From: Rhodocyclaceae bacterium
GTDB taxonomy: Bacteria; Pseudomonadota; Gammaproteobacteria; Burkholderiales; Rhodocyclaceae
NCBI GenBank assembly: GCA_030824115.1
Contig: JAVBYI010000004.1
Span: 310,001 to 374,000 of the forward strand
DNA: 64,000 nt
Direction: 5' to 3'
Part shown: piece after piece, positions 12,075 to 28,025 of the stretch
How the letters are laid out: every line of letters begins with the position of its first letter
How positions within the stretch are numbered: the first letter of the stretch is position 1
Made by a program: the position numbers and the translations under genes
Notes under the pieces: generated by a model
The model's database searches: none
Seen by the model: the letters and a program-made list of their open reading frames with translations, nothing else
Told to the model about the DNA's origin: nothing

Positions 12075-12598
12075 GTGTTCAGCTCCTTGACGAGGGGCAG
12101 AATCTTTTTCTCCAGCACCTCGGGGGTGATCGGACCGATCTGCTTGAAGCGGATCACGCCGGCCTTGTCGATCAGATAGGTTTCCGGCACGCCATAGACG
12201 CCGTAGTTGATGCCGACGCGACCGTCGCCATCGAAGGCCGAGAGCAGATAGGGATCGCCGAAGCGGGCCAGCCAGCGCAGGCCGTCGTCGCGCTTGTCCT
12301 TGTAGTTGAGACCTACGACGGGGATCGCGCCGGCGGTTTTCGAATACTCGACCAGAATCGGATGCTCTTCACGACAGGAGACGCACCACGAGGCCCAGAC
12401 GTTGAACAGCCAGACTTTGCCCTGCATGTCCTTGGGCGAGAAGTTTTTATCGGGGTTGCTCAGCAGGGGCACATTGAATGCCGGTGCCGGCTTGCCGACT
12501 AGCGGCGAGGGGACTTCGCGCGGATTGAGTCCCAGACCGACAGCCAGCAGGGCAATCAGCGCAATAAAAGCACCGAGGGGAAGAAGGAACTTGTTCAT
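12071..12598 (-). CDS. ccmG: Thiol:disulfide interchange protein CcmG/DsbE
   Basis: Membrane-tethered thioredoxin-fold reductase in the cytochrome c maturation pathway. It has 175 residues. An N-terminal anchor covers about 4-23 and the active site is WASWCVSCREEHP (about 69-81). The family GVYGVPETYLID with the cis-Pro loop is present. It overlaps ccmF by 4 bases. Confidence 0.95.
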   Translation of the reverse strand: MNKFLLPLGAFIALIALLAVGLGLNPREVPSPLVGKPAPAFNVPLLSNPDKNFSPKDMQGKVWLFNVWASWCVSCREEHPILVEYSKTAGAIPVVGLNYKDKRDDGLRWLARFGDPYLLSAFDGDGRVGINYGVYGVPETYLIDKAGVIRFKQIGPITPEVLEKKILPLVKELNT

Positions 12599-14547
12599 GC
12601 AAGGGCTCCGGCGGTCACAGGCGCTGATGCTTTTACTCTGAGGCGATAACGACGGTCACCTGCGGCAATCAGGCCACCCAGGGCCATCAGGAAGCAGCCG
12701 CCCCAGATCCAGTCGACGAAGGGTTTGAAATAGACGCGCACCGCCCAAGCGCCGTTTTCGCGGTCGGGGGTCAGCGGTTCGCCGAGCGATACATAGACGT
12801 CGCGCGTCAGGCTCGCATCAATGGCCGCTTCGGTCATCGGCATGGAGGAGCTTTGATAGTCGCGCTTCTCAGGATGGAGAATGCGCTCCAGCTTGCCGTC
12901 CTTGACCAGATCAAAGCTGCCAACCGAGGCGCGGTAATTGGGGCCATCCGCCAGATGGACGCCATTGAACTTGAAGTTGTAGCCGCCGACGCTGACCGTA
13001 TCGCCCGGCTCCATGCGCACGTCGCGTTCTTCCTGATAGGTGCCGACCATGGCCACGCCGACGACAAATGCCGCGAGGCCGAAGTGGGCGAGTTGCATGC
13101 CCCACCAGGAGGCGGTGGGTGTGCCGGCCTTCATGCGCTCGATGGTTTGCAGCACGAGGGCGGCGACCATCCAGCCGACCAGCGCCAGGGCAATCGCCAC
13201 ATAGGCGTGCCATGCGCCGGCGAGCATAGGCAGCGCAACCCCGGCGATAACGGCCGCCACGGCGGCGGGCCAGAGCTTGAAGAGGATGGTTTTCAGGTCG
13301 GCCTGTTTCCAGCGCGCCACCGGCCCGATGGCCACCAGTACCAGCAGCGGCAGCATGATCGGCACGAACACGGCATTGAAGTAGGGTGGGCCGACGGAGA
13401 TCTTGCCTAGGCCGAAGGCGTCCACAATCAGTGGGTACAGGGTGCCGAGCAGCACCGCGCCGCAGGCGACGACCAGCAGCACGTTGTTGATCAGCAGAAA
13501 AGTTTCGCGCGAGACCAGCTCGAAGCGGCCGCCGAGGCTGACCTTGGGCGCGCGCAGGGCAAACAGGAACAGCGAACCGCCGACGACAATGGCGAGCAGC
13601 ATCAGGATGAAAATGCCGCGGCGCGGGTCGGTGGCGAAGGCGTGCACCGAAGTGAGCACGCCCGAGCGTACCAGGAAGGTACCGAGCAGCGAGAGCGAGA
13701 AGGCGGCGATGGCCAGCAGCACCGTCCAGTTCTTGAAGCTGCCGCGCTTCTCGGTCACGGCCAGCGAATGGATCAGCGCGGTGGCCACCAGCCAGGGCAT
13801 GAACGAGGCGTTCTCGACCGGGTCCCAGAACCACCAGCCGCCCCAGCCGAGTTCGTAATAGGCCCACCAGGAACCGAGCGCGATGCCGAGGGTGAGGAAG
13901 ACCCAGGCTACCGTGGTCCAGGGGCGCGACCAGCGCGCCCAGGCCGCATCGAGCTGGCCGGCCAGCAAGGCGGCGATGGCGAAGGCAAAGACCACCGACA
14001 TACCGACATAACCCATGTAGAGCAGTGGCGGGTGATAAACGAGACCGGGGTCCTGCAGCAGCGGGTTGAGCGAACGACCTTCCTCGGCACCGGGGAGCAT
14101 GCGGTCGAAGGGATTGGAGGTGAGCAGCACGAAGGCCAGCAGGCCAACCGCGACGAGGCCCAGAACCGCCAGCACGCGCGCGACCATGACTTCGGGCAAC
14201 TGACGCGAGAACAGCGCGACGGTCATTGCCCAACCGGTCAGCATGAGCACCCACAGCAGCAGCGAGCCTTCATGACCGCCCCAGACGGCAGAGACGCGGT
14301 ACATCGTCGGCATCTGCGTGTTCGAGTGCGCGGCGGCGTACTGAACGGTGAAGTCGTTGGTGTAGAAGACCCAGGTCAGGCAGGCGAAGGAAAACGCCAC
14401 CAGCAGGAACGCGGCGGCGGTCGCCGGCCGCGCCACGGCGACCCACTCGGCACGGTTGCGCTGGGCGCCGAGCAGCGGCAGGACGCCTTGCACCAGCGTG
14501 ACGAAAAAGGCGAGGATCAGGGCGAAGTGGCCGAGTTCAGGGATCAT
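12595..14547 (-). CDS. ccmF: Heme lyase subunit CcmF
   Basis: Large polytopic membrane protein that forms the holocytochrome c synthetase with CcmH/CcmI, of 650 residues. The tryptophan-rich heme-handling segment (WGGWWFWDPVENASFMPW, about 236-253) is intact, and many transmembrane helices are visible. I chose the ATG at 14545-14547 (MIPELGHFAL), since the extra upstream frame overlaps ccmE and does not look like CcmF. Confidence 0.95.
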   Translation of the reverse strand: MIPELGHFALILAFFVTLVQGVLPLLGAQRNRAEWVAVARPATAAAFLLVAFSFACLTWVFYTNDFTVQYAAAHSNTQMPTMYRVSAVWGGHEGSLLLWVLMLTGWAMTVALFSRQLPEVMVARVLAVLGLVAVGLLAFVLLTSNPFDRMLPGAEEGRSLNPLLQDPGLVYHPPLLYMGYVGMSVVFAFAIAALLAGQLDAAWARWSRPWTTVAWVFLTLGIALGSWWAYYELGWGGWWFWDPVENASFMPWLVATALIHSLAVTEKRGSFKNWTVLLAIAAFSLSLLGTFLVRSGVLTSVHAFATDPRRGIFILMLLAIVVGGSLFLFALRAPKVSLGGRFELVSRETFLLINNVLLVVACGAVLLGTLYPLIVDAFGLGKISVGPPYFNAVFVPIMLPLLVLVAIGPVARWKQADLKTILFKLWPAAVAAVIAGVALPMLAGAWHAYVAIALALVGWMVAALVLQTIERMKAGTPTASWWGMQLAHFGLAAFVVGVAMVGTYQEERDVRMEPGDTVSVGGYNFKFNGVHLADGPNYRASVGSFDLVKDGKLERILHPEKRDYQSSSMPMTEAAIDASLTRDVYVSLGEPLTPDRENGAWAVRVYFKPFVDWIWGGCFLMALGGLIAAGDRRYRLRVKASAPVTAGALA

Positions 14548-14569
14548 GGGGAACCTTTTAGCCGGCTGG

Positions 14570-15010
14570 CTATTGTTTGATGGTTTTTTGCGCCTTTTGC
14601 GCTTGATCGACGGCGTGCTGCGCTTCCGGCGGCATGTAGTTCTCGTCGTGCTTGGCCAGCACTTCGGTGGCGGCGAAGGTGCCATCCGGCTGGATGCGGC
14701 CTTGGGCGACGGCGCCTTTGCCTTCCATGAACAGGTCGGGCAGGATGCCGGTATAAGTCACCGGCACTTCCTTGGCCGTGTCGGTAATGGCGAAATGCAC
14801 GGTCAGGTTTTCACGCCGTAGCGAACCTTCCTTGACCATGCCGCCGACACGGAAAATCTGCCCTTGCGGTGCCTTGCCTGCGGCCACCTCCGTGGGGGTG
14901 ACGAAAAAGGCGATGTTGCTGTTGAGGGCGTTGAGGACCAGTGCGGCGGCAACGCCAATCGTGGCGAGTCCGCCGGTGATGAGGGCGATGCGTTTGTGGC
15001 GTGGTTTCAT
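14570..15010 (-). CDS. ccmE: Heme chaperone CcmE
   Basis: Periplasmic heme chaperone anchored by one N-terminal helix (about 8-27). It has 146 residues. The covalent heme-binding His is in [12 protein letters not shown] (about residue 122), and the downstream Tyr of the HxxxY motif is present. It has the usual beta-barrel length. The start overlaps ccmD by 4 bases. Confidence 0.95.
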
Positions 15011-15189
15011 GGTTGTTCCAGGTTTTCCGCGATGCGCTCGCGGCGCAGACTGCGCAAAATATCATTACGACGCTTGCTGGCCAGAATTGGTTCCACAATC
15101 ATTAAAACGGCGCAGACACCGAAGCTGCCCCACACATAGAGGCCGTAGCCACCCATGGCAAAGAATGCGGCAGGGGATTCCCAGTTCAT
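15007..15189 (-). CDS. ccmD: Heme exporter protein CcmD
   Basis: Small membrane protein of 60 residues that stabilises the CcmABCD-CcmE complex. It has the family [11 protein letters not shown] segment at about 14-24, one transmembrane helix at about 15-36, and a basic cytoplasmic tail ([18 protein letters not shown]). It overlaps ccmC and ccmE by 4 bases each. Confidence 0.92.
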
Positions 15190-15938
15190 GCTTTCACCTC
15201 ATCCAGTTCCTTGACCCATTCGGTGTGCGCTTCGCGTTCAAGAATGATGGCGCGAACCCGGGTTAGTGCGACCGCAATCGAATACATCCAGAAGGCCAAT
15301 GCCATCAGCAACATGCCCCACAGCATCGTCGCGGCCATGGTCGGCGCCTTGGTCAGCGAGACGGAGGCGCCCTGATGCAGGGTGTTCCACCACTTCACCG
15401 AGAAATAGATGATCGGCACATTGACGACACCGACGAGCGCGAGGATCGCCCCGGCCTTGTCGGCGCGGCGTGCATCGTCAATGGCGGCTTGCAGCGCGAT
15501 GAAGCCGATATAGAGGAAGAACAGGATCAGCGCCGATGTCAGGCGCGCATCCCACACCCACCACGCGCCCCACATCGGCTTGCCCCAGAAGGCGCCAGTC
15601 CATAGCGAGACGAAGGCCATGATCGCACCAGTGGGGGCGAGTCCCTGCGCCATCATGCCCGACAGGCGCGTGTTCAAGGCGAGGCCGAGTCCCGCCCAGG
15701 CGGCCATCACGATGTAGATGAACATTGACATCCAGGCTGCCGGCACGTGGATGAAGATGATGCGGTAGCCCTCGCCCTGCTGGGCATCGGTCGGCGCGGC
15801 GAAAAAGGTGATCCACAGACCCGGGATGAGAAACACGGCGGTCAATCCCCAGAACCACGGGATCAGCTTGCCGGCGAGCGGGTAGAAGCTCTGTGGCGAC
15901 GCGTACTTGAACCAGTGAATGATCTTGTTATTACTCAT
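15186..15938 (-). CDS. ccmC: Heme transport protein CcmC
   Basis: Six-helix membrane protein that loads heme onto CcmE. It has 250 residues. The tryptophan-rich WWD segment WGAWWVWDARLTSALILF is at about 118-135, flanked by His residues in IFIHVPAAWMS and WNTLHQGAS that should ligate heme. The ccmB stop is directly upstream of the start codon. Confidence 0.95.
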   Translation of the reverse strand: MSNNKIIHWFKYASPQSFYPLAGKLIPWFWGLTAVFLIPGLWITFFAAPTDAQQGEGYRIIFIHVPAAWMSMFIYIVMAAWAGLGLALNTRLSGMMAQGLAPTGAIMAFVSLWTGAFWGKPMWGAWWVWDARLTSALILFFLYIGFIALQAAIDDARRADKAGAILALVGVVNVPIIYFSVKWWNTLHQGASVSLTKAPTMAATMLWGMLLMALAFWMYSIAVALTRVRAIILEREAHTEWVKELDEVKA

Positions 15939-16604
15939 TTACTCCAGCGCAATCCTCAAGGCGGCCGTGGTGGCCCACGGCGCAAAAAATACAGCCAGCG
16001 CCAGCAGCGCGGCCAACAACGACAAGTGTCCGCCGGCACCCAGCCCGGAAATGTGGGCTTCGACGGCGCCGGCACCGAAAATCAGGGCGGGCACGTACAA
16101 GGGCAATACCAGCAGGGACAGTAACACGCCACCCCCGCGTACCCCCAGCGTCAGGGCCGCACCAATCGCACCGATCAGCGACAGCAAGGGCGTACCGATC
16201 AGCAACGCGATCATCAGGACGCCCAACGCCCCGCTATCGAGGTCGAACTGAATGCCGAGCACCGGCGCCAGCAGAACCAAGGGTAAACCCGTGGTGATCC
16301 AGTGGGCGATGATTTTACCGGTTACCAGCAGGCCCAGCGGGGAGGGGGCCAGCACCATCTGCTCAAGCGTGCCGTCGGCGTGATCGGGGGCGAACAGGCG
16401 CGAAAGACCGAGCATGGTGGCGAGCAGGGCGGCCACCCAGAGGATGCCCGGGGCAATTTTTCTCAGGAGCGCCGTTTCCGGCCCGATGCCGAGCGGAAAC
16501 AGGCTGACGACGATGATGAAGAAGAATAGCGCGGTGAGCACCTCACTCTTCCGGCGCATCGCGAGCAGCAAATCGCGGCGGATGATGGCCAGAATGGCGT
16601 TCAT
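15939..16604 (-). CDS. ccmB: Heme exporter permease CcmB
   Basis: Permease of the CcmAB ABC module that releases holo-CcmE from CcmC. It has 221 residues with six hydrophobic helices and begins MNAILAIIRRDLLLAMRRKSE, as in the family. I chose the ATG at 16602-16604, because the longer frame reads through ccmA. It overlaps ccmA by 4 bases. Confidence 0.94.
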   Translation of the reverse strand: MNAILAIIRRDLLLAMRRKSEVLTALFFFIIVVSLFPLGIGPETALLRKIAPGILWVAALLATMLGLSRLFAPDHADGTLEQMVLAPSPLGLLVTGKIIAHWITTGLPLVLLAPVLGIQFDLDSGALGVLMIALLIGTPLLSLIGAIGAALTLGVRGGGVLLSLLVLPLYVPALIFGAGAVEAHISGLGAGGHLSLLAALLALAVFFAPWATTAALRIALE

Positions 16605-17206
16605 ATCTTCAGCACTCTGCCATTGGGCAGCGGCATGCTCTGGTGGCTGGTGAGAATGCAGATGCCACCGGCCTTGACGTGTTCCTCGATCAGGCCGGAC
16701 AACATGTCGACCGCCTTGACATCTAGGGCGGTGAAAGGCTCGTCGAGAATCCATAGCGTGGCCTGACGTACTGCCAGTCGCGCCAGCAGCACGCGACGCT
16801 TCTGACCGGCGGACAAAAAGCGTACGGCGAGGTCTTCGCGGCCGCGCAGGCCGAAACGTGCGAGTGCCTTGAGCGCGGCGGTTTCATCCAGCGGCGCACC
16901 GTCGAGCTTGGCGGCCAGCGTCAGGTTCTCGAAAGGCGTCAGTTCTTCCTTGACCGCACCGTGATGGCCGAGGAACAGCATGTCGCGGTGGTAGTCCTCG
17001 GCGAGCGTCCTGATCGGTGCATTCTTCCAGTGAATTTCACCTTCCGCCGGCGGTGAGAGACTGGCAAGAATGCGTAGCAGGCTGGTTTTGCCGGCACCGT
17101 TCTCGCCCTGCACGTGCAGCCATTCCCCCGGCCCGACCGCAAGATCGAGCCCGGAAAACAGGCAGCGTTCGCCGCGAACGCAGGAGAGGCCGGTAGCGGT
17201 CAGCAT
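16601..17206 (-). CDS. ccmA: Heme exporter ATPase CcmA
   Basis: ATPase of the CcmAB ABC transporter, 201 residues. The Walker A is GENGAGKTSL (about 34-43), the signature is LSAGQKRRVLLARL, Walker B is LWILDEPFTALD, and the switch His is in TSHQSM. I chose the ATG at 17204-17206; the upstream extension in the frame contains the 17264 repeat and is not conserved. It is the first gene of the ccm operon. Confidence 0.94.
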   Translation of the reverse strand: MLTATGLSCVRGERCLFSGLDLAVGPGEWLHVQGENGAGKTSLLRILASLSPPAEGEIHWKNAPIRTLAEDYHRDMLFLGHHGAVKEELTPFENLTLAAKLDGAPLDETAALKALARFGLRGREDLAVRFLSAGQKRRVLLARLAVRQATLWILDEPFTALDVKAVDMLSGLIEEHVKAGGICILTSHQSMPLPNGRVLKI

Positions 17207-17602: not shown

Positions 17603-18481
17603 ATGGAAGCGTTTTCGAGTCTTGCGACTGCCGGATTTTTCATGGCCGCATTGGGCGTCGTGCTCGCGGGTTTGCTCGCCTTCGCCAATCGCAAGTTGTA
17701 CGTCTATGAAGACCCGCGCATCGGCGAGGTTGAAGATTTGTTGCCGAAGTCGAACTGTGGTGCTTGCGGGCAGCCCGGCTGTCGCGGCTTTGCCGAGAAG
17801 GTGGTCACTGGCGATGTTGTGCCGGCGCAATGCACGGTGAGTTCGCCCGAGCAACGCCAGGGCATTGCCGATCTGCTGGGTGTTGTCGCCGGCAACATCG
17901 AGAAAAAGGTCGCTCGGCTGGCCTGTGCCGGCGGCAAGCATGTCGCGTTCATCCGCGCTCGTTATGCGGGTCTCAAGACCTGTCGTGCAGCGGCCGTCGT
18001 CGGCGGTGGCGGCAAGGAGTGCGCCTGGGGCTGTCTTGGCCTGGGCGACTGTGAGGCCGTTTGCGAGTTCGATGCGTTGCATCTGGATGCGCACGGCTTG
18101 CCCGTGGTCGATGCCGACAAATGTTCGGCCTGCAACGACTGCGTCGAGGTCTGCCCCAAGGGCTTGTTCAGTCTGGAGCCGATCAGTCATCGCCTGTGGG
18201 TCGCCTGCAAAAATCAGGCGGACGGTGATACGGCTGAAAAATCCTGCGAAGTGGCCTGCACTGCCTGTGGCAAGTGCGTGGCCGATGCCGCGCCCGGCCT
18301 GATCCGCCTCGACGGTCTGCTCGCGACCGTGCGCTACGAATTGAACCAGTGGGCGACCCGAGGGCCGACGGAACGTTGTCCGACCGGCGCGATCGTCTGG
18401 TTCGACACCCCCAATCACGCGCTCAAGGGCGCTGCCGCCAAACGCATCCTGAGGCAGGACGCCCTGCCTCAGTTGCATTGA
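17603..18481 (+). CDS. rnfB: Rnf complex ferredoxin subunit RnfB
   Basis: Iron-sulfur subunit of the ion-translocating ferredoxin:NAD+ oxidoreductase. It has 292 residues. One N-terminal membrane helix (about 7-27) is followed by the 4Fe-4S motif NCGACGQPGC (about 51-60). A 4Fe-4S pair follows around CGLGDCEAVC-like spacing and CSACNDCVEVCP, plus a further CEVACTACGKC cluster. It is longer than the E. coli protein (about 190 residues), with the extra clusters at the C-terminus as in many Rnf systems. It is the first gene of the operon. Confidence 0.92.
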   Translation: MEAFSSLATAGFFMAALGVVLAGLLAFANRKLYVYEDPRIGEVEDLLPKSNCGACGQPGCRGFAEKVVTGDVVPAQCTVSSPEQRQGIADLLGVVAGNIEKKVARLACAGGKHVAFIRARYAGLKTCRAAAVVGGGGKECAWGCLGLGDCEAVCEFDALHLDAHGLPVVDADKCSACNDCVEVCPKGLFSLEPISHRLWVACKNQADGDTAEKSCEVACTACGKCVADAAPGLIRLDGLLATVRYELNQWATRGPTERCPTGAIVWFDTPNHALKGAAAKRILRQDALPQLH

Positions 18482-18509
18482 GATGTACCGGATTCTTTAG
18501 GAGTTTGCC

Positions 18510-21500
18510 ATGTTGATGAAATTGTTCCAGTCTGCCAATAACGAAACCGGCAAGGGTCATGAAAAGGTGAAATATCCCGGCGTGCGCGATGCCGTCGATG
18601 GCAACACCGCCGTCATCCATGTCGAGCGCGAAGCCTCCGATGCGGCCGGTGCTTACCCGATTACGCCCTCGACGCAGATGGGCGAATACTGGGCCGAGGA
18701 AGTCGCCAAGGGCCACCTTAACATTTCCGACAAGCCGCTGATCTTCATCGAGCCAGAATCCGAGCATGCGGCTGCAGGCGTGACCGCCGGCATGGCGATG
18801 ACCGGCCTGCGCGCGACGAACTTCTCTTCGGCACAGGGTGTGGCCTTCATGCACGAGTCGCTCTACGGCGCGGTCGGCAAGCGCTTGCCCTACATCCTCA
18901 ACATGGGCTGCCGCGCCATCACCAAGGCGTCGCTCAACGTGCATTGCAGCCATGACGATTACCATTGCATCGACGACACCGGCTTTATCCAGGTCATGGC
19001 GAAGAACGCCACCGAGTGCGCCGACCTGAACCTGATCGGCCGCAAGATTGCCGAACTGTCGCTGACGCCGGCGATCATCGGTCAGGATGGTTTCATCACC
19101 ACCCACCTGATCGAATCGGCCATCCTGCCCGAACGCGAGCTGATCGAGGAGTTTGTCGGCAAGCCGGACGACCTGATCGATACGCCGACGCCGGCGCAGC
19201 AAATGCTTTATGGTCCAAAGCGCCGCCGCGTGCCGGCCATCTGGGACGTCGATGTGCCGCTCGTCTCAGGCACGGTGCAGAACCAGGATGCCTACATGCA
19301 GGCCACCGCCGGTCAGCGCCCTTACTTTTTCGATCACATTGAACAGATCACCGATACCTGCATGGCGGAATACGCCGGCCTGACCGGCCGTCAGTATCAG
19401 CGCGTGGCGACCTACAAGATTGAAGATGCCGATTACATCCTCGTCGGCATGGGCAGCATGATCGTGCAGGCCGAGGTCGTCGCCGACTATCTGCGCGAGA
19501 CGCGCAAGCTCAAGGTGGGCGTCGTCAACATCACCATGTTCCGCCCCTTCCCCGGCGACCTGATTGGCAGCATCCTGAAGGGCCGCAAGGGCGTCGCCGT
19601 GCTGGAGCGCACCGACCAGCCGCTGGCCGAAGACCTGCCGCTGATGCGTGAAGTGCGCGCGACGGTCAGCAAGTGTTTTGAAAACGGCATGGGCAGTGAG
19701 GCGGAGAAACCCTTCCCCGGTTATGCGTCCTACGCGGCGAACGAAATGCCGCGCCTGTATTCCGGCTGCTATGGCCTCGGTTCACGCGACCTGCAGCCCG
19801 AGGGCCTGATCGCCGCCGTCGAGAACATGCTGCCCGACGGCGCGAAGCGCAAGTTTTATTACCTCTCGATCGACTTCGCCCGCGACCCGCTCAACCCGAA
19901 GGATGAAATCCATCAGCAGGATTTGCAGGAGAAGTATCCGCAGATCAAGGCGCTGGGCATCCGTGGTAGCGAGAATCCCAACCTGTTGCCCAAGGGCGCG
20001 ATCACCGTGCGCATGCATTCCGTGGGCGGCTGGGGCGCGATCACCACCGGCAAGAACCTGGCGATGACCTTGTTCGAACTGCTCGGCTATGACATCAAGG
20101 CCAACCCGAAATACGGTTCGGAAAAGAAGGGCCAGCCGACCACCTACTACCTGTCGGCCGCACCGGAGCCGATTCGCATCAACTGCGAATACACCTTTGT
20201 AGATGTCGTGCTCTCGCCCGACCCCAATGTCTTCGGTCACTCGAATCCGCTCTCCGGCCTCAAGCAGGGCGGCGTCTTCATCATCCAGTCCAATCTGGGC
20301 GAGGAGACCTGGGCGAACTTCCCGCTCTGGGCGCAGAAGTTCATCGTCGATAACGAGATCAAGGTGTTCTTCATCGATGCCTTCAAGGTGGCACGCGAGG
20401 AGGCCGGTTCGGCCGAGTTGCAGTTGCGCATGCAGGGTATTGCCTTCCAGGGCGCCTTCTTCGCGGCCAGTCCGACCATGGCCAATGCCGGCCTGACCGA
20501 GAACGCGCTGTTCGCGGCCATCGAGGCACAGTTGGAATCGAAGTTCGGCAAGAAGGGCGCCCGCGTGGTGCAGGACAACCTGCGCGTGGTCAAGCGCGGC
20601 TTCACCGAACTGACCGAAATTACCGAGAAAGAAGTCGGCAAGACCCGTAAGGGCTTGGTCAAGAAGGATGCTGGCCTGCCGATCATGCTGCAGCAGTTCC
20701 CGGCCGGTGACGGCAAGGTAGCCGACATCCATCGTTTCTGGGAGCAGACCGGCAATTTCTATCTGACCGGCAAAGGCAACGACAACCTCGTCGACCCGTT
20801 CATCGGCGCTTCGCTGATGCCCGCCGCCACCGGTGTGTTCCGCGACATGACCGGCATCCGCTTCGAGCATCCAGTGTGGCTCGCCGAGAACTGCACGGCT
20901 TGCGGCAACTGCTACACCGAATGTCCTGATAGCGCGATTCCCGGCCTGGTCAGCTCGATCGGCGATGTGCTCAACACCTGTATCAATCGTATCGAAACCA
21001 GTGGCACGCCGACGCGCTTCCTGCGTCGGGCCACGCGTACTGTCGACAAGAAGCTGCGCGGTCTGATCGAGAGCGTCGGCGGTGCCGTGCGTCCCCTGAT
21101 GGACCGTGCCATGAGCGAGACCGTGGCCGAGGCGCCCGAGGCCGATCGTCATGCGATGTCGGCCGAGTTCACGCTGCTGCAGGTGCAACTCGCCGGCTTC
21201 CAGTTTGCGGCGACCAAGCCCTATTGGCAGCAGAAGGAGAAGAAGGCCAAGGGCAGCGGTGGTCTGTTCTCGATCACCATCAACCCCTATACCTGCAAGG
21301 CCTGTGCGCTGTGCGTGACGGTCTGCGAGGACAATGCGCTGCAGATGGTGACGCAGACCGACGAGTCGACCGACAAGCTGCGCCGCGACTGGAATTTCTG
21401 GCTCGATCTGCCGACCACGCCGCCCGAGTACAGCCGCATCGACAGCCTCGATGAGAAGATCGGTGCGCTGGAGACCCTGCTGCTCGACAAGAAGAACTAC

Positions 21501-23426
21501 AACTCGATGGCCTGCGGCGATGGTGCCTGCCTCGGTTGCGGCGAGAAGACGGCGATCCACCTGTTCACCTCGACCGTCACCGCGCTGATGCAGCCGCGCG
21601 TCAAGGCATTTACCGAAAAGCTCGACGACCTGATCGCCAAGCTCGAACAGCACATGCGCATCAAGCTCGCATCGGCCGTCGATCTCACCGACACCAATGC
21701 GGTGGTGCGCGCGGTTGAAGCCACCGGCCAGCACGATCTCACCCTCTCGAACCTTGCCTCCAAGCTCAACGAGAACAAGCCGTCGCAGTTGCTCGACCCG
21801 GCCTGGGTGAAGAACATTGCCCAGATGCTTGAGAAGCTCAAGGATCTGAAGTGGCGCTATGTCGAAGGCCCGACCGGCCGTGGCCGTGCCGACATGGGCG
21901 TGGTGAACTCCACCGGCTGTACCTCCGTGTGGGGCGCGACCTATCCCTTCCACCCCTACCCCTTCCCCTGGACCTCGCATCTGTTCCAGGATTCGCCGAG
22001 TGTGGCGATGGGCCTCTTCGAAGGTCACATGGCGAAGATGGCTGATGGCTTCAAGGCCGTGCGCATGGCCGAGAAGGAACTGGCCGGCGACTACCTGCCG
22101 GATCGTGACGACGACTTTTTCCGGCGCTTTACCTGGAGCAAGTTCTCGGCAGAGGAATGGGAATTGTGCCCGCCGGTCGTGGCCATCGGCGGCGATGGTG
22201 CGATGTACGACATCGGCTTCCAGAACCTCTCGCGCGCCATGATGTCCGGCATGCCGATCAAGGTGCTGATCGTCGATACGCAGGTGTATTCGAATACCGG
22301 TGGTCAGGCCTGTACCTCGGGCTTCATCTCGCAGGTATCCGACATGGCGCCCTACGGCCAGGCGATGCGCGGCAAGCAGGAGACCCGCAAGGAAATCTCG
22401 CTGATCGGCATGGCGCATCGCACGTCGTATGTGATGTCGGGCACCATCGCCCACGTCAATCACCTGATCGAGAGCTATATCGACGGCCTGAATTCGCGTC
22501 GTCCGGCGCTGTTCAATATCTACGCCGTCTGCCCGCCCGAGCATGGCGTCGGCGACGACAAGAGCGTCGATCAGAGCAAGCTGGCGGTCGAAGGCCGTGC
22601 CTATCCGTTGTTCCGTTTCGATCCTGATGCGGGCACCACCTTTGCCGAGTGCGTTTCGCTCGAAGGCAACCCGGCGCTTGACGAGGATTGGCCGACCTAC
22701 ACGCTGAAGTACCGCGACGAGGCGGGCGCCGAGCAGACCATGACGCTGCCGATGACCTTCGCCGATTTCGCCGCTACCGAAGCGCGCTTCCTCAAGCAGT
22801 TCAAGAAGGCACCGCCGGAGACCTGGAACGACAACATGGTGATGCTGGCCGACTTCCTGAAACTGGATGCCGATGAGCGTGAGGGCAAGTTCCCGTTCAT
22901 CTGGGGCGTGGATCAGAAGAACCGCTTGACGCGTCTGCTGGTTACTGAAGATCTCGTGCGTTCTGCCGAAGAGCGTCTCGCCTTCTGGCGCCAGCTCAAG
23001 GGCATTGCCGGGGTAGATGCGCGTGCGGGCGACGAAAGCGCGGTGGCCGAACGGATACGCGCCGATCTGCTGGCGAAGATTTCGGCCAGCCTGGGGCTGG
23101 GTGGTGGCGATGCTACTGCCGCAAATGTCGGCGCTGGCGAGACGGCACAAGTCGCTGCCAGTGGCGCCAGTGGTGACTACGAGCCGGTCTGGGTCGAGTC
23201 CCCCGAGTGCACGGCCTGCGACGAGTGCATCAACCTTGCACCGAAGACCTTTGCCTACAACGACCAGAAGCTGGCGATTGTCATCAACCCGAAGGGCGGC
23301 AAGTTTGCCGATATCGTCAAGGCCGCCGAGAAGTGCACGGCTGCTTGTATCCATCCGGGCACCCCGTGGAACATGGGCGAAGCGGGTGTCGACAAGCTGA
23401 TGGCACGGGCGGCCAAGTTTAACTAA
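18510..23426 (+). CDS. Pyruvate:ferredoxin (2-oxoacid) oxidoreductase, single-chain with C-terminal ferredoxin domain
   Basis: TPP- and iron-sulfur-dependent enzyme that oxidises pyruvate (or another 2-oxoacid) to the acyl-CoA and reduces ferredoxin. It has 1638 residues, against about 1170-1200 for NifJ. In order: pyrimidine-binding domain (AYPITPSTQMGEYW near 50), domain with FRPFPGDLIG, gamma domain (about 500-700), two 4Fe-4S motifs (CTACGNCYTEC near 794, CKACALCVTVC near 929), GACLGCGEKTA near 1006, and the TPP site GGDGAMYDIGFQN near 1227. Additions are a helical insert of roughly 80 residues at about 1020-1110 and a C-terminal ferredoxin-like domain (CTACDEC near 1567). A dispersed repeat encodes VGAGETA in the linker before that domain. 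The gene lies between rnfB and rnfC. Substrate is inferred. Confidence 0.9.
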   Translation: MLMKLFQSANNETGKGHEKVKYPGVRDAVDGNTAVIHVEREASDAAGAYPITPSTQMGEYWAEEVAKGHLNISDKPLIFIEPESEHAAAGVTAGMAMTGLRATNFSSAQGVAFMHESLYGAVGKRLPYILNMGCRAITKASLNVHCSHDDYHCIDDTGFIQVMAKNATECADLNLIGRKIAELSLTPAIIGQDGFITTHLIESAILPERELIEEFVGKPDDLIDTPTPAQQMLYGPKRRRVPAIWDVDVPLVSGTVQNQDAYMQATAGQRPYFFDHIEQITDTCMAEYAGLTGRQYQRVATYKIEDADYILVGMGSMIVQAEVVADYLRETRKLKVGVVNITMFRPFPGDLIGSILKGRKGVAVLERTDQPLAEDLPLMREVRATVSKCFENGMGSEAEKPFPGYASYAANEMPRLYSGCYGLGSRDLQPEGLIAAVENMLPDGAKRKFYYLSIDFARDPLNPKDEIHQQDLQEKYPQIKALGIRGSENPNLLPKGAITVRMHSVGGWGAITTGKNLAMTLFELLGYDIKANPKYGSEKKGQPTTYYLSAAPEPIRINCEYTFVDVVLSPDPNVFGHSNPLSGLKQGGVFIIQSNLGEETWANFPLWAQKFIVDNEIKVFFIDAFKVAREEAGSAELQLRMQGIAFQGAFFAASPTMANAGLTENALFAAIEAQLESKFGKKGARVVQDNLRVVKRGFTELTEITEKEVGKTRKGLVKKDAGLPIMLQQFPAGDGKVADIHRFWEQTGNFYLTGKGNDNLVDPFIGASLMPAATGVFRDMTGIRFEHPVWLAENCTACGNCYTECPDSAIPGLVSSIGDVLNTCINRIETSGTPTRFLRRATRTVDKKLRGLIESVGGAVRPLMDRAMSETVAEAPEADRHAMSAEFTLLQVQLAGFQFAATKPYWQQKEKKAKGSGGLFSITINPYTCKACALCVTVCEDNALQMVTQTDESTDKLRRDWNFWLDLPTTPPEYSRIDSLDEKIGALETLLLDKKNYNSMACGDGACLGCGEKTAIHLFTSTVTALMQPRVKAFTEKLDDLIAKLEQHMRIKLASAVDLTDTNAVVRAVEATGQHDLTLSNLASKLNENKPSQLLDPAWVKNIAQMLEKLKDLKWRYVEGPTGRGRADMGVVNSTGCTSVWGATYPFHPYPFPWTSHLFQDSPSVAMGLFEGHMAKMADGFKAVRMAEKELAGDYLPDRDDDFFRRFTWSKFSAEEWELCPPVVAIGGDGAMYDIGFQNLSRAMMSGMPIKVLIVDTQVYSNTGGQACTSGFISQVSDMAPYGQAMRGKQETRKEISLIGMAHRTSYVMSGTIAHVNHLIESYIDGLNSRRPALFNIYAVCPPEHGVGDDKSVDQSKLAVEGRAYPLFRFDPDAGTTFAECVSLEGNPALDEDWPTYTLKYRDEAGAEQTMTLPMTFADFAATEARFLKQFKKAPPETWNDNMVMLADFLKLDADEREGKFPFIWGVDQKNRLTRLLVTEDLVRSAEERLAFWRQLKGIAGVDARAGDESAVAERIRADLLAKISASLGLGGGDATAANVGAGETAQVAASGASGDYEPVWVESPECTACDECINLAPKTFAYNDQKLAIVINPKGGKFADIVKAAEKCTAACIHPGTPWNMGEAGVDKLMARAAKFN
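23123..23147 (+). repeat. Dispersed 25-bp repeat, copy 6 (in PFOR gene)
   Basis: AAATGTCGGCGCTGGCGAGA then CGGCA: two differences from the consensus. Sense orientation, translated NVGAGETA in the linker between the TPP region and the C-terminal ferredoxin domain. Confidence 0.88.
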
Positions 23427-24790
23427 TGAAACTGCTCTCCTACTTCCGCGGCGAGGCCTTCCAGCGCGGCGTGCATCCGCCGTCACAGAAGCTGACGGCG
23501 CAGACACGCATCCGCCGCCTGCCGTACCCGGCCCGGGTGACGGTACCGCTGTCGCAGCATATCGGCAAGGTGCCGCACGCCATCGTCAAGGTGGGGCAGG
23601 AAGTGGTGCGCGGTGAGCCGATCGCGCGTTCCGATGATTGGCTGTCGGTGCCGCATCATGCACCGGTGACAGGCGTGGTCGAGTTTGTCGGTTTGCGCCC
23701 TTCGGCACGCGGCCCGTGGATCGAGTCCATCGTCATCCGCGCCCATCCCGGTGCGACGCAGGATGATTTGTGGGGCCAGCCTCGCGACCTCTCTGAGGCC
23801 ACAAGTGGCGACATCCTGCAGATGATCTGGGATACCGGCATGGTCGGTCTCGGCGGTGCCGCATTCCCGACCCACGCCAAGCTGACGGTGCCGAAGCAGG
23901 CCAAGGTGCATACGCTGGTGGTGAATGGCTGCGAGTGCGAGCCGTATCTGACTTGCGACCATCGCGTGATGGTGGAACAGGCCGACGATCTGATCACCGG
24001 CATTCGCTATGGCATGCGGGCGACGGGGGCGGTGCGTGCCATCGTCGGCATCGAGGACAATAAACCGGATGCCTTGCTGGCGGTGCGTGCCGCCATCGAG
24101 CGCGCAGGCACGGTTCCGGAGGGGGAAATCCACGCCGAGCTGGTGCCGACGAAGTATCCGCAGGGTTCCGAGAAGATGCTGATCATGGCGCTGTTCGGCG
24201 TGGAGATCCCGGCCGGCGGTTTGCCGGTGGCGCTCGGCATGGTGGTCAACAACGTCGGCACGCTGGCAGCGCTGGGCAAGTTGCTGCCGGCTGGCCGTGG
24301 CTTGACCGAACGTGTCGTTACCATCACCGGCCCGGGCGTGGCCAAGCCGGGCGATTACATCGTGCCGCTGGGCACGCCGTTGCGCTTTGTGCTCGACTAC
24401 GCGGGCGCACCGGATGTCGATGCCAAGCAGATCATTCTTGGCGGGCCGATGATGGGTCAGGCGGCGGCCTCGCTCGACGTGCCGATTACCAAGGGCATGT
24501 CCGGCGTGCTGGTGATGCGCGGCGACGAGATGGCCGCGCAGGCGGACCGCAAGACCTATCCGTGCATCAAATGCGCGGAATGTGTCGAGTCCTGCCCGAT
24601 GGGGCTGAATCCCTCAACGCTCGGCATGCTCGCCGCCAAGCGCGAATACGACCTGATGGGCAGTGCTTATCACCTCGGCGAATGCTTCGAGTGCGGCTGC
24701 TGCTCTTATGTCTGTCCCTCGAACATCCCGCTGGTGCAGCAGTTCCGGGTGGCCAAACAGATCCTGCGCGAGAAAGCGATCGCCAAATGA
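23426..24790 (+). CDS. rnfC: Rnf complex subunit RnfC
   Basis: Peripheral NADH/FMN-binding subunit of the Rnf complex, 454 residues. The FMN/NAD region carries GMVGLGGAAFPTHAKL (about 138-153), and NGCECEPYLTCDHRVM is conserved. Two 4Fe-4S motifs lie at about 379-437 (CIKCAECVESCP and CFECGCCSYVCPSNIP). The start overlaps the PFOR stop (TAATG), which argues for one transcript and coupled translation. Confidence 0.95.
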   Translation: MKLLSYFRGEAFQRGVHPPSQKLTAQTRIRRLPYPARVTVPLSQHIGKVPHAIVKVGQEVVRGEPIARSDDWLSVPHHAPVTGVVEFVGLRPSARGPWIESIVIRAHPGATQDDLWGQPRDLSEATSGDILQMIWDTGMVGLGGAAFPTHAKLTVPKQAKVHTLVVNGCECEPYLTCDHRVMVEQADDLITGIRYGMRATGAVRAIVGIEDNKPDALLAVRAAIERAGTVPEGEIHAELVPTKYPQGSEKMLIMALFGVEIPAGGLPVALGMVVNNVGTLAALGKLLPAGRGLTERVVTITGPGVAKPGDYIVPLGTPLRFVLDYAGAPDVDAKQIILGGPMMGQAAASLDVPITKGMSGVLVMRGDEMAAQADRKTYPCIKCAECVESCPMGLNPSTLGMLAAKREYDLMGSAYHLGECFECGCCSYVCPSNIPLVQQFRVAKQILREKAIAK

Positions 24791-25950
24791 GTATCGAAAT
24801 CCGTTCCGCCCCGCACATCAAGGCACCGCGCAGCGTCGAGATGATCATGCGCCATGTCGTCTGGTCGTTGATGCCGATTTGTGCGTTCTATATCTACCAG
24901 TACGGCTTGTCGGCTTTTGCTTCTCTGGTGGTGGTGACAGGGAGCTGTCTGCTGACCGAGCGCTGGTTCACCAAGACCGGTACGCAATCGGGGGATATTA
25001 GCGACTACTCGGCCGTGATCACCGGCCTGTTGCTGGCCTTGTCGCTACCGCCCGGCTTCCCTTTGTGGATGGGGGCGGTCGCCGGTTTTGTCGCCATCGC
25101 GCTGGGCAAGGCGCTGTTCGGCGGCATCGGCTTCAACGTTTTCAACCCGGCGTTGGTCGGTCGTGCCTTTGTGCAAGCCGCCTTCCCGCAGGCGATTGCC
25201 ACCTACACACCGTCTTTCCTGCCCGGCCGTTTCCACGAGATGGTTCCCTCGTCGATGGCGGTTCCGTTCATGCAACCGGCTGACGTGCTTGAGTGGCTGA
25301 AGCTCAAGCAACTCGATGCGCTGGCCGGTGCCACGCCGCTCGCCAAGTGGAAGTTCGAGGGCGTGCTGGCGGGCGCCGAGGAATTGGTGACTTCGCTGTC
25401 CGGCCATATGGCGGTCGGCCCGTCACCGGCGTTGATCCTCGTCTGTGGTATCTATCTGGCGATGCGCCGCTTTATGGACTGGCGCATCCCGGCGGCGATT
25501 CTCGGCAGTGCCGGCCTGACGGCGTGGATCCTGTTCGCGATCAGCCCCGAGCGTTTCCCCAATCCCTTCTTCATGCTGTTCTCGGGTGGTCTGATTCTCG
25601 GTGCGGTGTATATGGCCACCGACATGGCCACGTCGCCAGTGACGCCCAAGGGCATGTGGGTCTATGGCGCATTCATCGGCCTGATGACGGTGGTGATCCG
25701 TTACTACAGCGGACTGCCGGAAGGCGTGATGTATGCGATTCTGCTGGGCAATGCCGCCACGCCGCTGATCGAACGCATCACCCAGCCGACGCCTTTCGGC
25801 AAGAGCGCATTGGCGCGACTCGGGCAGGTCAAGCGTGGGGCATCCTATCCGTTGCATCCGGGCTACATTTCGCGCGAGGATGCCGGGGCGGTGACACCGA
25901 AGAAACGCTTTTTGCCGAATAAGCCAAAACGTGAGGATCGGGAATCATGA
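24787..25950 (+). CDS. rnfD: Rnf complex subunit RnfD
   Basis: Membrane subunit with covalently bound FMN, 387 residues with about nine or ten hydrophobic helices. The FMN-bearing Thr is probably in LAGATPLAKW (about residue 182). FNVFNPALVGRAF and the C-terminal YAILLGNAATPLIER are family segments. I chose the ATG at 24787 (MSIEIRSAPHIKAPRS), overlapping the rnfC stop; the longer frame reads into rnfC. Confidence 0.95.
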   Translation: MSIEIRSAPHIKAPRSVEMIMRHVVWSLMPICAFYIYQYGLSAFASLVVVTGSCLLTERWFTKTGTQSGDISDYSAVITGLLLALSLPPGFPLWMGAVAGFVAIALGKALFGGIGFNVFNPALVGRAFVQAAFPQAIATYTPSFLPGRFHEMVPSSMAVPFMQPADVLEWLKLKQLDALAGATPLAKWKFEGVLAGAEELVTSLSGHMAVGPSPALILVCGIYLAMRRFMDWRIPAAILGSAGLTAWILFAISPERFPNPFFMLFSGGLILGAVYMATDMATSPVTPKGMWVYGAFIGLMTVVIRYYSGLPEGVMYAILLGNAATPLIERITQPTPFGKSALARLGQVKRGASYPLHPGYISREDAGAVTPKKRFLPNKPKREDRES

Positions 25951-26636
25951 GCGCCGAGGTTACGATGGTTCCGCAAACAACCCCAACGGCTGCAATGATT
26001 CGTACCCTTGGCCTGATTTCGGCGATCTGCGGCCTGATCATCGTCGGGGCCTATCAAAGCACTTACGACGCGGTGCAGGAAAACAAACGCATCGCCGTGG
26101 AACGGGCGGTGTTCAAGGTGATTCCCTCGGCCAAGTCGATCGTCGAGTATTGGGCCTTATCGGACGGACAGATTGAAAAAGTCGGCGCTGGCGGGACGGC
26201 ACAAGCTGGCGCCATCAAATTCTTCGCTGGCTATGACGAGCCGGGCAAACTCGTCGGCCTCGCCGCCGAAGGCGCCGCCAAGGGCTATTCGGACTATGTG
26301 CGGATTCTGTTTGCCTATGATCCCTCGGCCGCTACCGTTACAGGCTTCGGCGTCGTATCCGCACGCGAAACACCGGGGATTGGCGACAAGATCACCGTTG
26401 ACAAGGCGTTCCTCGCCAATTTTCCGCTGGAGGCAAAGCTGTCGGATGATGGCATGGTGCTGGCCCATGAAATTCGTACCGTGAAACATGGCAGCAAAAC
26501 CAATCCGTGGGAGATCGATGCCATTTCCGGTGCGACGATTACGTCGCGCGCCGTCGGTAAAGGAATCAACGATACGGCGCAAACCCTGTTGCCACGGATC
26601 GCGCCGCACCTCGAAAAATTAAAGGAAAAGTCATGA
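25947..26636 (+). CDS. rnfG: Rnf complex subunit RnfG
   Basis: Periplasm-facing flavoprotein subunit with covalent FMN, 229 residues. It has one N-terminal helix (about 19-40) and the FMN-attachment motif ISGATITS at about 194-201. FGVVSARETPGIGDKI is a family segment. A perfect dispersed repeat (26173-26197) is read KVGAGGTA at about 76-83, a region that varies in length in the family. Overlaps rnfD and rnfE by 4 bases each. Confidence 0.94.
   Translation: MSAEVTMVPQTTPTAAMIRTLGLISAICGLIIVGAYQSTYDAVQENKRIAVERAVFKVIPSAKSIVEYWALSDGQIEKVGAGGTAQAGAIKFFAGYDEPGKLVGLAAEGAAKGYSDYVRILFAYDPSAATVTGFGVVSARETPGIGDKITVDKAFLANFPLEAKLSDDGMVLAHEIRTVKHGSKTNPWEIDAISGATITSRAVGKGINDTAQTLLPRIAPHLEKLKEKS
26173..26197 (+). 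repeat. Dispersed 25-bp repeat, copy 7 (in rnfG)
   Basis: Perfect consensus match. Sense orientation, translated KVGAGGTA inside RnfG. Confidence 0.92.
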
Positions 26637-27271
26637 GCCAGCCGACCGCCAAAACCTGGGACGAGTTCATGGAAGGCGTCTGGCGCCAGAACCCGGTGTT
26701 CGTGATGGTGCTGGGCATGTGCCCAGCGCTGGCGGTGACCGTCTCGGCGATCAATGCACTCTCCATGGGCGTGGCGACGACCTTTGTGCTGATCTGTTCC
26801 TGCGCGCTGGTGTCGATGACGCGGCGCTTTACCCCGAAGGAAGTGCGGATTGCGGTCTACATCGTCATCATCGCCACCTTTGTCACGGCGGTCGATTACG
26901 CCATCCAGGCCATCAGCCTGGCGCTCTACGATGCACTGGGTGCCTTCATTCAGCTGATCGTGGTGAACTGCATCATCCTCGGCCGTGCCGAAGCGCATGC
27001 CGCCAAGAATCCCCCGCTCCCGGCGATGATCAATGCGGCGGGCATGGGCCTTGGGTTTACCATCGGCCTGTTCGCACTGGGTTCGGTGCGCGAAATCTTC
27101 GGCGCCGGTGCATTGTTTGGCGTGCCGCTCTTTGGCGAAGGTTTTCAGCCGTGGGTGGTGATGGTCTTGCCGCCGGGCGGCTTTTTTGTGCTGGGCTGCT
27201 GGTTGCTGCTGTTCGCAGCGATCGAGCGGCGCAAGCAACGCAAGCTGGTGGAGGTGACTGAAAATGTCTGA
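26633..27271 (+). CDS. rnfE: Rnf complex subunit RnfE
   Basis: Integral membrane subunit homologous to NqrD, 212 residues with six helices. The conserved Cys in GMCPALAVT (about 29) and VNCIILGRAEAHAAKNPP (about 112) match the positions that hold the intramembrane iron-sulfur centre with the partner subunit RnfA. Overlaps rnfG and rnfA. Confidence 0.95.
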   Translation: MSQPTAKTWDEFMEGVWRQNPVFVMVLGMCPALAVTVSAINALSMGVATTFVLICSCALVSMTRRFTPKEVRIAVYIVIIATFVTAVDYAIQAISLALYDALGAFIQLIVVNCIILGRAEAHAAKNPPLPAMINAAGMGLGFTIGLFALGSVREIFGAGALFGVPLFGEGFQPWVVMVLPPGGFFVLGCWLLLFAAIERRKQRKLVEVTENV

Positions 27272-27842
27272 GTCCGCCTTCCAGATTTTCATCAATGCCC
27301 TGCTCGCCAACAACTTCGTGCTGGCGATGTTCCTCGGCCTGTGCCCCTTCCTCGGCGTCTCGGGCAAGCTCGACACGGCTTTCCCGATGGGCGTGGCGAC
27401 CACCTTCGTGATGCTGGTCGCCTCACTGTGTGCCTATGGCCTGAACCTGTTGCTAACGGCGTTTGGCCTCGAATTCCTGCGCCTGATTTCCTACATCGTC
27501 ATCATCGCCTCGGCGGTGCAACTCGTCGAGATGGTGCTGAAGAAATACAGCCCGACCCTGTTCCGCGCCTTGGGCATCTACCTGCCGCTGATTACGACCA
27601 ACTGTGCGGTGTTGGGTGTCGCACTGTTCCAGACGGCGCGTGATTACGACTTTATTCAGTCAGTGACCTTTGCCATTGGCGGCGGTGCCGGCTTCACTTT
27701 GGCGCTGGTGCTGATGGCCAGCGTGCGCGAACGCCTGCAGCTTTCCGATGTGCCCTCGGTGGCACAAGGCACGGCGTTATCGCTGATGCTGGCGGGTGTC
27801 CTGTCGTTGGCCTTCATGGGTTTTGCGGGCCTGGGGGGCTGA
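27264..27842 (+). CDS. rnfA: Rnf complex subunit RnfA
   Basis: Integral membrane subunit homologous to NqrE, 192 residues with six helices. The Cys in GLCPFLGVSGKLDTA (about 27) and TTNCAVLGVAL (about 113) should complete the iron centre shared with RnfE. It is placed last among the core rnf genes, next to a Cys-rich small protein. Confidence 0.95.
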   Translation: MSESAFQIFINALLANNFVLAMFLGLCPFLGVSGKLDTAFPMGVATTFVMLVASLCAYGLNLLLTAFGLEFLRLISYIVIIASAVQLVEMVLKKYSPTLFRALGIYLPLITTNCAVLGVALFQTARDYDFIQSVTFAIGGGAGFTLALVLMASVRERLQLSDVPSVAQGTALSLMLAGVLSLAFMGFAGLGG

Positions 27843-28025
27843 GTGGGGACTTACCTCGTCACCATTGGCTTGATCTTCAGTCTGATGATCGGCGCCATTG
27901 CCGTCGAACGTTTGTACCGTGCTTTTGCGGCGCGCAATCCACAGCTGGGCCCGTTCCGTTCACCGGATGGCTGCGGCTGCTGTGCGAACAAAAAGTCAGG
28001 CTGCAGCGATAGCGGTTGCCAGTGA
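27843..28025 (+). CDS. Small Cys-rich single-helix membrane protein, possible NqrM-like assembly factor
   Basis: Protein of 60 residues with a GTG start directly after the rnfA stop. It has one N-terminal helix (about 4-22) and then a short soluble tail with six Cys, DGCGCCANK...GCSDSGC. This layout resembles NqrM, a small membrane protein needed for iron insertion between NqrD and NqrE, the homologues of RnfE and RnfA. The sequence match is not close enough to name it. The 3' end overlaps the convergent diguanylate cyclase gene by about 30 bases. Confidence 0.72.
   Translation: MGTYLVTIGLIFSLMIGAIAVERLYRAFAARNPQLGPFRSPDGCGCCANKKSGCSDSGCQ

Follow-up and report, generated by a model that had tools for sequence, protein, structure and literature searches.

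Why does a gene for a pyruvate:ferredoxin oxidoreductase (PFOR) lie inside an operon for the Rnf complex? The question is raised by positions 17603-28025 of a 64,000-nucleotide stretch of contig JAVBYI010000004.1 from a Rhodocyclaceae bacterium (the whole stretch is referred to as the window), where the list of open reading frames (ORFs) gives the order rnfB-PFOR-rnfC-D-G-E-A followed by a small Cys-rich gene, all on the plus strand. With a probability of roughly 0.6, we read this operon as a dedicated, reversible PFOR-Rnf electron-transfer unit that was somewhat likelier selected as an ion-gradient-driven pyruvate synthase. That PFOR and Rnf are coupled at all is, judged from the anatomy of the system, highly probable. 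The genes, and the parts of the PFOR discussed below, are as follows.

17603-18481, plus strand: rnfB, long form, 292 amino acids; CGACGQPGC Fe-S motif at residue 52, ferredoxin-type motif at residue 174, 20 Cys in total
18510-23426, plus strand: PFOR-type 2-oxoacid:ferredoxin oxidoreductase, 1638 amino acids; POR_N, PFOR_II, POR, two 4Fe-4S motifs, thiamine pyrophosphate (TPP) domain, C-terminal extension
20892-21326, plus strand: ferredoxin-like part of the PFOR, residues 795-939; two CxxCxxCxxxC motifs
22620-23108, plus strand: middle part of the C-terminal extension, residues 1371-1533; mostly confident AlphaFold model, candidate docking domain (a guess)
23184-23423, plus strand: putative tethered ferredoxin domain, residues ~1559-1638, with Cys 1567, 1570, 1573 and 1609; like Desulfovibrio africanus ferredoxin I
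23426-24790, plus strand: rnfC; GLGGAAFP motif, two 4Fe-4S motifs (CxxCxxCxxxC)
24787-25950, plus strand: rnfD; AGATPL motif
25947-26636, plus strand: rnfG; FMN_bind domain, SGATIT motif
26633-27271, plus strand: rnfE, from the family scan
27264-27842, plus strand: rnfA, from the family scan
27843-28025, plus strand: small protein, 60 amino acids; GTG start, hydrophobic N-terminal stretch, Cys-rich tail

Domain and family scans named every gene of the operon except the small Cys-rich ORF. The curated NCBIfam cut-off is exceeded by rnfC, rnfD, rnfE and rnfA and barely by rnfB (68.9 vs. 68.7 bits); rnfG stays under it (92.5 vs. 102), but its FMN_bind domain is over the Pfam cut-off. The Rnf set is complete, i.e., RnfA, B, C, D, E and G are all encoded together, and so is the motif set (SGATIT in RnfG, AGATPL in RnfD, a CxxCxxxxC Fe-S motif and the two CxxCxxCxxxC motifs of RnfC). 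In Rnf subunits, AGATPL and SGATIT are flavin-site motifs, while the Cys motifs are Fe-S sites. The gap between rnfB and PFOR measures 28 nucleotides; from PFOR onward, neighbours abut or overlap by 1-8 nucleotides. The overlap of rnfC and rnfD is 4 nucleotides when rnfD is read from the ATG that overlaps the rnfC stop (the ORF list offers a longer GTG start at 24562). The gene order, common strand and overlaps described in the first-pass annotation are thus confirmed by ORFs and family scans.

We then ask how widely this order is kept. A scan of genome contigs returned at least 591 PFOR relatives; all locus counts use the best 80, and a locus is called testable if its stretch reaches far enough. 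The seven top-listed relatives (81-86% identity) come from records titled Rhodocyclaceae, Rhodocyclales or Sulfuritalea. rnfB is directly upstream of PFOR in 73/76 testable loci, the exceptions being one with rnfB behind rnfA (L035), one with rnfB present as two aligned pieces (L065) and one where no rnf was found (L063). rnfC is directly downstream in 65/66 testable loci, and the C-D-G-E-A series is whole and ordered in 56/57. L063 is the only miss in both of these counts; its PFOR has no Rnf in the 10 kb that follow it or in the 2.2 kb between it and the contig end upstream. The first-pass annotation had proposed searching other genomes for the same gene order, and it is indeed found there. 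Such a conserved order does not look like the outcome of chance gene insertion. We take the operon, from its sequence, to be real, conserved and functionally telling, a variant of Rnf-linked energy metabolism for which we infer direction and substrate.

Named isolates carrying the arrangement are Sulfurisoma sediminicola, Rhodoferax antarcticus, Rhodocyclus tenuis, Rubrivivax gelatinosus, the alphaproteobacterium Rhodoblastus acidophilus, Sedimenticola hydrogenitrophicus and two Ectothiorhodospira species; metagenome carriers are labelled Thiobacillus, Gallionellaceae and Candidatus Thiodiazotropha. It is nevertheless a minority trait. PFORs of the window's kind (type 1) occur in 12/229 genomes of an even class sample, three of them as fragments (gene order was checked in eight of the 12, own genome excluded), and a PFOR at ≥70% identity was found in 3/398 genomes of a phylum sample, own genome included. 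No Rnf lies in the stretches fetched for PFORs that are split (L109-L113; some of these stretches are short) or remote (L136-L142, L148).

The C-terminal extension of the PFOR suggests how the two partners may be joined. Our alignment comprised 78 full-length type-1 PFORs, 6 NifJ-type enzymes and 6 PFORs from a sister operon (type 2, see below). The four extra cysteines (1567, 1570, 1573, 1609) are present in 78/78 type-1 sequences and in 0/6 of the NifJ-type ones. The C-terminal domain resembles D. africanus ferredoxin I by sequence (phmmer E 1e-4) as well as by fold (1fxr; root-mean-square deviation 0.8 and 1.0 over 58 columns, Foldseek E 9.5e-3 and 1.4e-3, probability 1.00). When the whole extension is used for the fold search, ferredoxins take the first 12 places among 673 matches; those after them, among the best 50 of the 673, have E ≥0.28 and probability ≤0.25, save one hydrogenase at rank 37. 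The model of the extension (mean predicted local confidence, pLDDT, 88; predicted template modelling score, pTM, 0.51) consists of a confident middle domain, for which the Foldseek search gave no convincing PDB match, then a stretch with pLDDT <50, then the ferredoxin. We read this layout as that of a tethered carrier. A model of residues 700-1638 has moderate confidence (pLDDT 73, pTM 0.66), for which reason its large-scale layout was left unused.

The PFOR of L063, 74% identical, stops near residue 1503, i.e., linker and ferredoxin are absent. It is the sole testable locus without rnfC and gives one isolated example of Rnf and the tethered ferredoxin being absent together. Fused ferredoxins are also seen elsewhere. 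At L138:7404-15342, a remote PFOR of 1677 amino acids has its own C-terminal ferredoxin-like domain and adjoins a GltD/NfnB-like gene (PRK12779), with no Rnf in the stretch; this PFOR is possibly wired to a different reductase. At L128:8136-11067, a gene adjoining korGAB encodes three ferredoxin domains in tandem, with linkers rich in Ala and Pro, again with no Rnf in the stretch.

Regarding the enzyme itself, the window PFOR scores 401 bits with TIGR02176, below the equivalog cut-off of 911 bits, and is therefore a divergent PFOR-type enzyme rather than a TIGR02176 equivalog. As far as its sequence tells, it retains the catalytic motifs and the 12 cluster cysteines. The motifs YPITPS, GDG and YSNTGG are found in all seven type-1 rows printed (the window protein and six others), the 12 cysteines are kept in 78/78 type-1 and 6/6 NifJ-type sequences, and the 8 cysteines of the ferredoxin-like part are likewise kept in all of both sets. 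The PFORs of D. africanus and Moorella thermoacetica (1b0p, 6cin) have domain order, TPP motif and cluster cysteines in common with the window PFOR, which is however about 400 residues longer and carries an extra middle domain and the C-terminal ferredoxin I-like domain.

The Rnf partner is distinct as well. For a tree of 69 RnfC sequences, we used 30 of type 1 (chosen from 76), 7 of type 2 and 32 others, namely the two additional RnfC copies of the own genome and, from a sample of 143 genomes, the 30 sequences that best matched the rnfC model. In this quick, midpoint-rooted search without bootstrap, which did not include clostridial and archaeal Rnf, type 1 forms a single clade (SH-aLRT 99), as does type 2 (SH-aLRT 100), and one branch splits both together from the 32 other RnfC (SH-aLRT 100). 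The window RnfC does not group with either of the other two copies in its own genome. Furthermore, distances among PFORs correlate with those among their Rnf subunits (Mantel r 0.90 for RnfB, 0.83 for RnfC, 0.86 for RnfD, 0.75 for RnfE and 0.56 for RnfA), each r being larger than all of 500 permutations; shared host descent also contributes to this correlation. The same six conserved subunits with like flavin and Fe-S motifs are found in Rnf of Rhodobacter capsulatus (nif), Acetobacterium and Clostridium; the window complex presumably shares the ferredoxin:NAD chemistry of these. It differs from them in its separate RnfC clade (with clostridial Rnf outside the tree), the order B-PFOR-C-D-G-E-A, the dedicated enzyme and the extra small Cys-rich protein. 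A position of rnfA as last rnf gene, as in the window, is among the gene orders reported for Chlorobi/Bacteroidetes in the excerpt available from PMC4014512.

Type-2 RnfC belongs to a sister operon with the order korGA-korB-(PFOR C-terminal-like gene)-rnfB-(PFOR-like gene, ~1260-1600 amino acids)-(sucC-sucD)-rnfCDGEA. It is carried by six genomes of the class sample (G034, G167, G218, G098, G219, G102) and by G260 and G265 (the stretch is cut in G098 and G259). Respective loci are L114, L115, L116, L117, L126, L127, L144 and L145. Seven of them show the full rnf series; sucCD is found in four (L114, L116, L126, L127) and absent in three (L115, L144, L145). SucC and SucD of L114 are over the NCBIfam cut-offs, KorB is below, and KorA of L126 is over. 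Compared with 2-oxoglutarate:ferredoxin oxidoreductase (Kor/Oor), the sister KorGAB matches OAFO_sf (over the cut-off in L126) and PorB_KorB (below the cut-off), but unlike Kor/Oor it clusters with Rnf and with what appears to be a dead PFOR scaffold. The sister PFOR-like proteins have, in 6/6 aligned sequences (L143-L145 are outside the alignment), lost YPITPS, GDG and the stretch of YSNTGG, together with all four cysteines of the proximal cluster. Since the same 6/6 keep the 8 cysteines of the ferredoxin part, they look as expected for an electron-conduit scaffold. The product of the C-terminal-like gene lacks TPP motif and proximal cysteines in 6/6 and has the tethered ferredoxin in frame in 5/6; the window PFOR's extension is ~28-34% identical to it (E 1e-46 to 1e-52, 7 loci). 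In the remaining case, L114, the ferredoxin follows just after in another frame, and korA is also spread over two frames. Stop codons were counted inside some PFOR-like matches (G259, G260, G265, G219, G102), while open PFOR-like frames reach 1258 amino acids in L126 and 1531 in L145. In our view, the strongest sign that the scaffold would serve as an electron conduit to Rnf is that a dead PFOR has retained its Fe-S parts next to another 2-oxoacid enzyme that is presumably active.

Taken together, the conserved order, the correlated distances and the tethered ferredoxin argue for the link between a ferredoxin-type 2-oxoacid oxidoreductase and Rnf that the first-pass annotation had put forward. 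The PFOR clusters would exchange electrons with Rnf, probably at RnfB, via the tethered ferredoxin rather than via a free pool, and the chain should be reversible. In one direction, NADH and the ion gradient would let Rnf push electrons uphill to ferredoxin, with PFOR carboxylating acetyl-CoA to pyruvate; the product would feed phosphoenolpyruvate (PEP) synthase where a PEP synthase gene follows the operon. In reverse mode, pyruvate would be oxidised, NADH made and ions pumped.

Which direction was selected is weighed on the surroundings of the operon and on the gene content of 55 carrier genomes. The latter comprise 51 with type 1 (12 from the class sample; 39 of the 80 loci led to the other 39) and 4 that have type 2 only. 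A PEP synthase over the cut-off is the next sizeable same-strand gene after rnfA in 15/57 loci, and PpsR is within the stretch in 11/80 (counted where rnfA was found). PEP synthase would compete for pyruvate, and both counts argue for synthesis and against the alternative that PFOR oxidises pyruvate to acetyl-CoA and that, at low oxygen, Rnf converts the low-potential electrons into NADH and an ion gradient, i.e., the same machine reversed. In the same sense we count sucCD in 4/7 sister operons and the genes for a FrdA-like flavoprotein and a NuoF-like protein that precede the L126 operon (both below curated cut-offs); the L126 set fits a path from fumarate to 2-oxoglutarate. A gene for the pyruvate dehydrogenase subunit aceE is matched in 45/55 carriers at E ≤1e-60, own genome included (44 over the cut-off), and many therefore have another enzyme for pyruvate oxidation. 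Oxidation, in turn, corresponds to the way Rnf normally runs in fermenters and acetogens. It is also how the paper on the Solemya velum symbiont, in the part available, reads such an operon (PMC4287430). At the same threshold, 10/55 carriers give no aceE match. Seven of them are among the 12 class-sample genomes with type 1 (no search covered the two-subunit E1 form), and these seven may rely on PFOR to oxidise pyruvate. With this last observation taken into account, the share of synthesis is about 55%, i.e., synthesis and oxidation as the selected role would stand at about 55:45; the oxidative account as a whole is a serious possibility that we nonetheless hold for doubtful. A general replacement of pyruvate or 2-oxoglutarate dehydrogenase was considered as well, and the aceE count together with sucA in 48/55 carriers opposes it, yet the seven class-sample genomes do not.

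Several further observations weigh against pyruvate synthesis by a dedicated unit. PEP synthase adjoins the operon in only 15/57 loci, an FNR-like reductase takes its place in 21/57, which fits NADPH exchange in either direction, and the window has neither of the two. Isocitrate lyase is present in 26/55 carriers, own genome included. Where PEP synthase is the neighbour, 3/11 have the lyase compared with 23/40 otherwise (Fisher p = 0.097, with kinship uncorrected and groups sorted by hand), so that a link between PEP synthase and a missing lyase amounts to a weak, non-significant trend. Some sister-operon copies may be damaged or badly assembled, given the L114 frames and the internal stops. 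Fused ferredoxin domains occur without Rnf in the fetched stretches of L138 and L128, therefore the domain is not Rnf-exclusive. A divergent LysR gene, found in 25/80 loci, does not decide the direction.

Pyruvate as the substrate is likewise deduced, and the TIGR02176 score below the cut-off weighs against it. An enzyme of the PFOR family acting on some other 2-oxoacid would account for that score, and the sister operon does have genes for another 2-oxoacid. We still regard this as improbable, since YPITPS and TPP motifs are as in NifJ-type enzymes, the solved structures that match best, by sequence and by fold, are pyruvate enzymes, and PEP synthase is a neighbour.

The first-pass annotation had further suggested that the operon supplies low-potential electrons to nitrogenase or benzoyl-CoA reductase and that nif or bcr genes be sought in the genome. 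nifH is indeed present there, about 20 kb from a different Rnf copy, while bcrB gave no match. Among the carriers, nifH is over the cut-off in 25/55, with no match at E ≤1e-60 in the other 30, and bcrB is matched in 4/55 at E ≤1e-40 (3 over the cut-off). Both are thus rejected as a general role, nitrogenase on the nifH count and the position of the own nifH, benzoyl-CoA reductase on the bcrB counts. In G082 (one contig, 99% complete), the PFOR-linked rnfC is the only rnfC match at E ≤1e-50, and there is no nifH match. Upstream of the window operon, no FNR-, NifA- or sigma-54-like pattern was found; over the upstreams of 71 loci, NifA-like patterns occur in 3/71, FNR-like in 1/71 and sigma-54-like in 0/71. 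That is, we see none of the regular nif linkage, co-occurrence or nif-type regulation that would mark an Rnf or NifJ dedicated to nitrogen fixation. A NifJ-like role, in which pyruvate electrons reach nitrogenase through ferredoxin and Rnf is a second source of the same ferredoxin, could draw on nifH in the own genome and in 25 carriers; given the 30 carriers without a match, the location of the own nifH and the scarcity of NifA- and sigma-54-like patterns, it is very improbable.

The small Cys-rich protein is probably a single-span membrane protein. The 60-amino-acid window protein has no match in NCBIfam or Pfam, and the one relative tested gave only two sub-threshold, chance-like Pfam matches. 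A small Cys-rich ORF follows rnfA in 57/59 type-1 loci by a loose pattern, of which at least 4 (L029, L032, L050, L072) look spurious by eye, and in 7/7 type-2 loci. The protein may resemble the Na+-NQR maturation factor NqrM, and our guess from this is that it may be a maturation factor for the membrane Fe-S site.

Upstream of and divergent from the operon, cytochrome c maturation genes (CcmH-like, Redoxin, CcmF, CcmB) lie on the minus strand at 10789-16754; a gene for a GGDEF protein lies downstream. The source genome has 3.0 Mb in 24 contigs and is 92% complete.

The gene order as such is already known and hence not new. In the available part of the Solemya velum symbiont paper (BMC Genomics 2014, PMC4287430), PFOR genes are placed between rnfB2 and rnfC2, inside an rnfBCDGEA operon (Rnf2) as in the window, and pyruvate is suggested as Rnf electron donor. 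The statement of the first-pass annotation that canonical rnf operons carry no oxidoreductase therefore holds for textbook operons but overlooks this precedent. The annotation also passed over the fused ferredoxin, and the sister operon lay outside its view. The symbiont account covers one genome, and its available part mentions neither a fused ferredoxin nor a clade, a sister operon or a reverse direction. Related reports, each as excerpted, touch on single aspects: a PFOR beside electron-transfer genes as possible NifJ in Rhodoferax antarcticus (PMC5374385), three rnf clusters of entirely unclear role in Allochromatium vinosum (PMC3368242), Rnf of unknown function among the genes distinct to iron oxidisers in a Gallionellaceae pangenome (PMC10734462), an Rnf cluster tied to nif genes in a Sideroxydans metagenome (PMC5178258), and PFOR treated as pyruvate synthase in storage-polymer use, with Rnf listed apart, in the Kentron symbiont (PMC6593406). 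The excerpt of the Na+-NQR origin study lists rnf gene orders with no mention of pyruvate or PFOR (PMC4014512). Our searches of the open-licence PMC literature did not turn up the family-wide breadth, the tethered ferredoxin, the Rnf clade or the dead-PFOR sister operon.

More tentatively, both operons may encode enzyme-dedicated, membrane-bound CO2-fixing supercomplexes in Proteobacteria, i.e., a pyruvate synthase (PFOR-Rnf) that depends on NADH and is driven by the ion gradient, and a matching 2-oxoglutarate synthase formed by KorGAB, dead PFOR and Rnf, each connected to the pump by a tethered ferredoxin and the second using the dead PFOR as electron wire. If so, the two would let respiring bacteria run ferredoxin-dependent carboxylations that are usually tied to strict anaerobes or light. 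A tethered ferredoxin would mean that low-potential electrons can be channelled instead of shared, which bears on ferredoxin chemistry in oxygen-exposed bacteria. And if this Rnf clade is hard-wired to 2-oxoacid enzymes, the question of what Rnf does would in part become directly testable.

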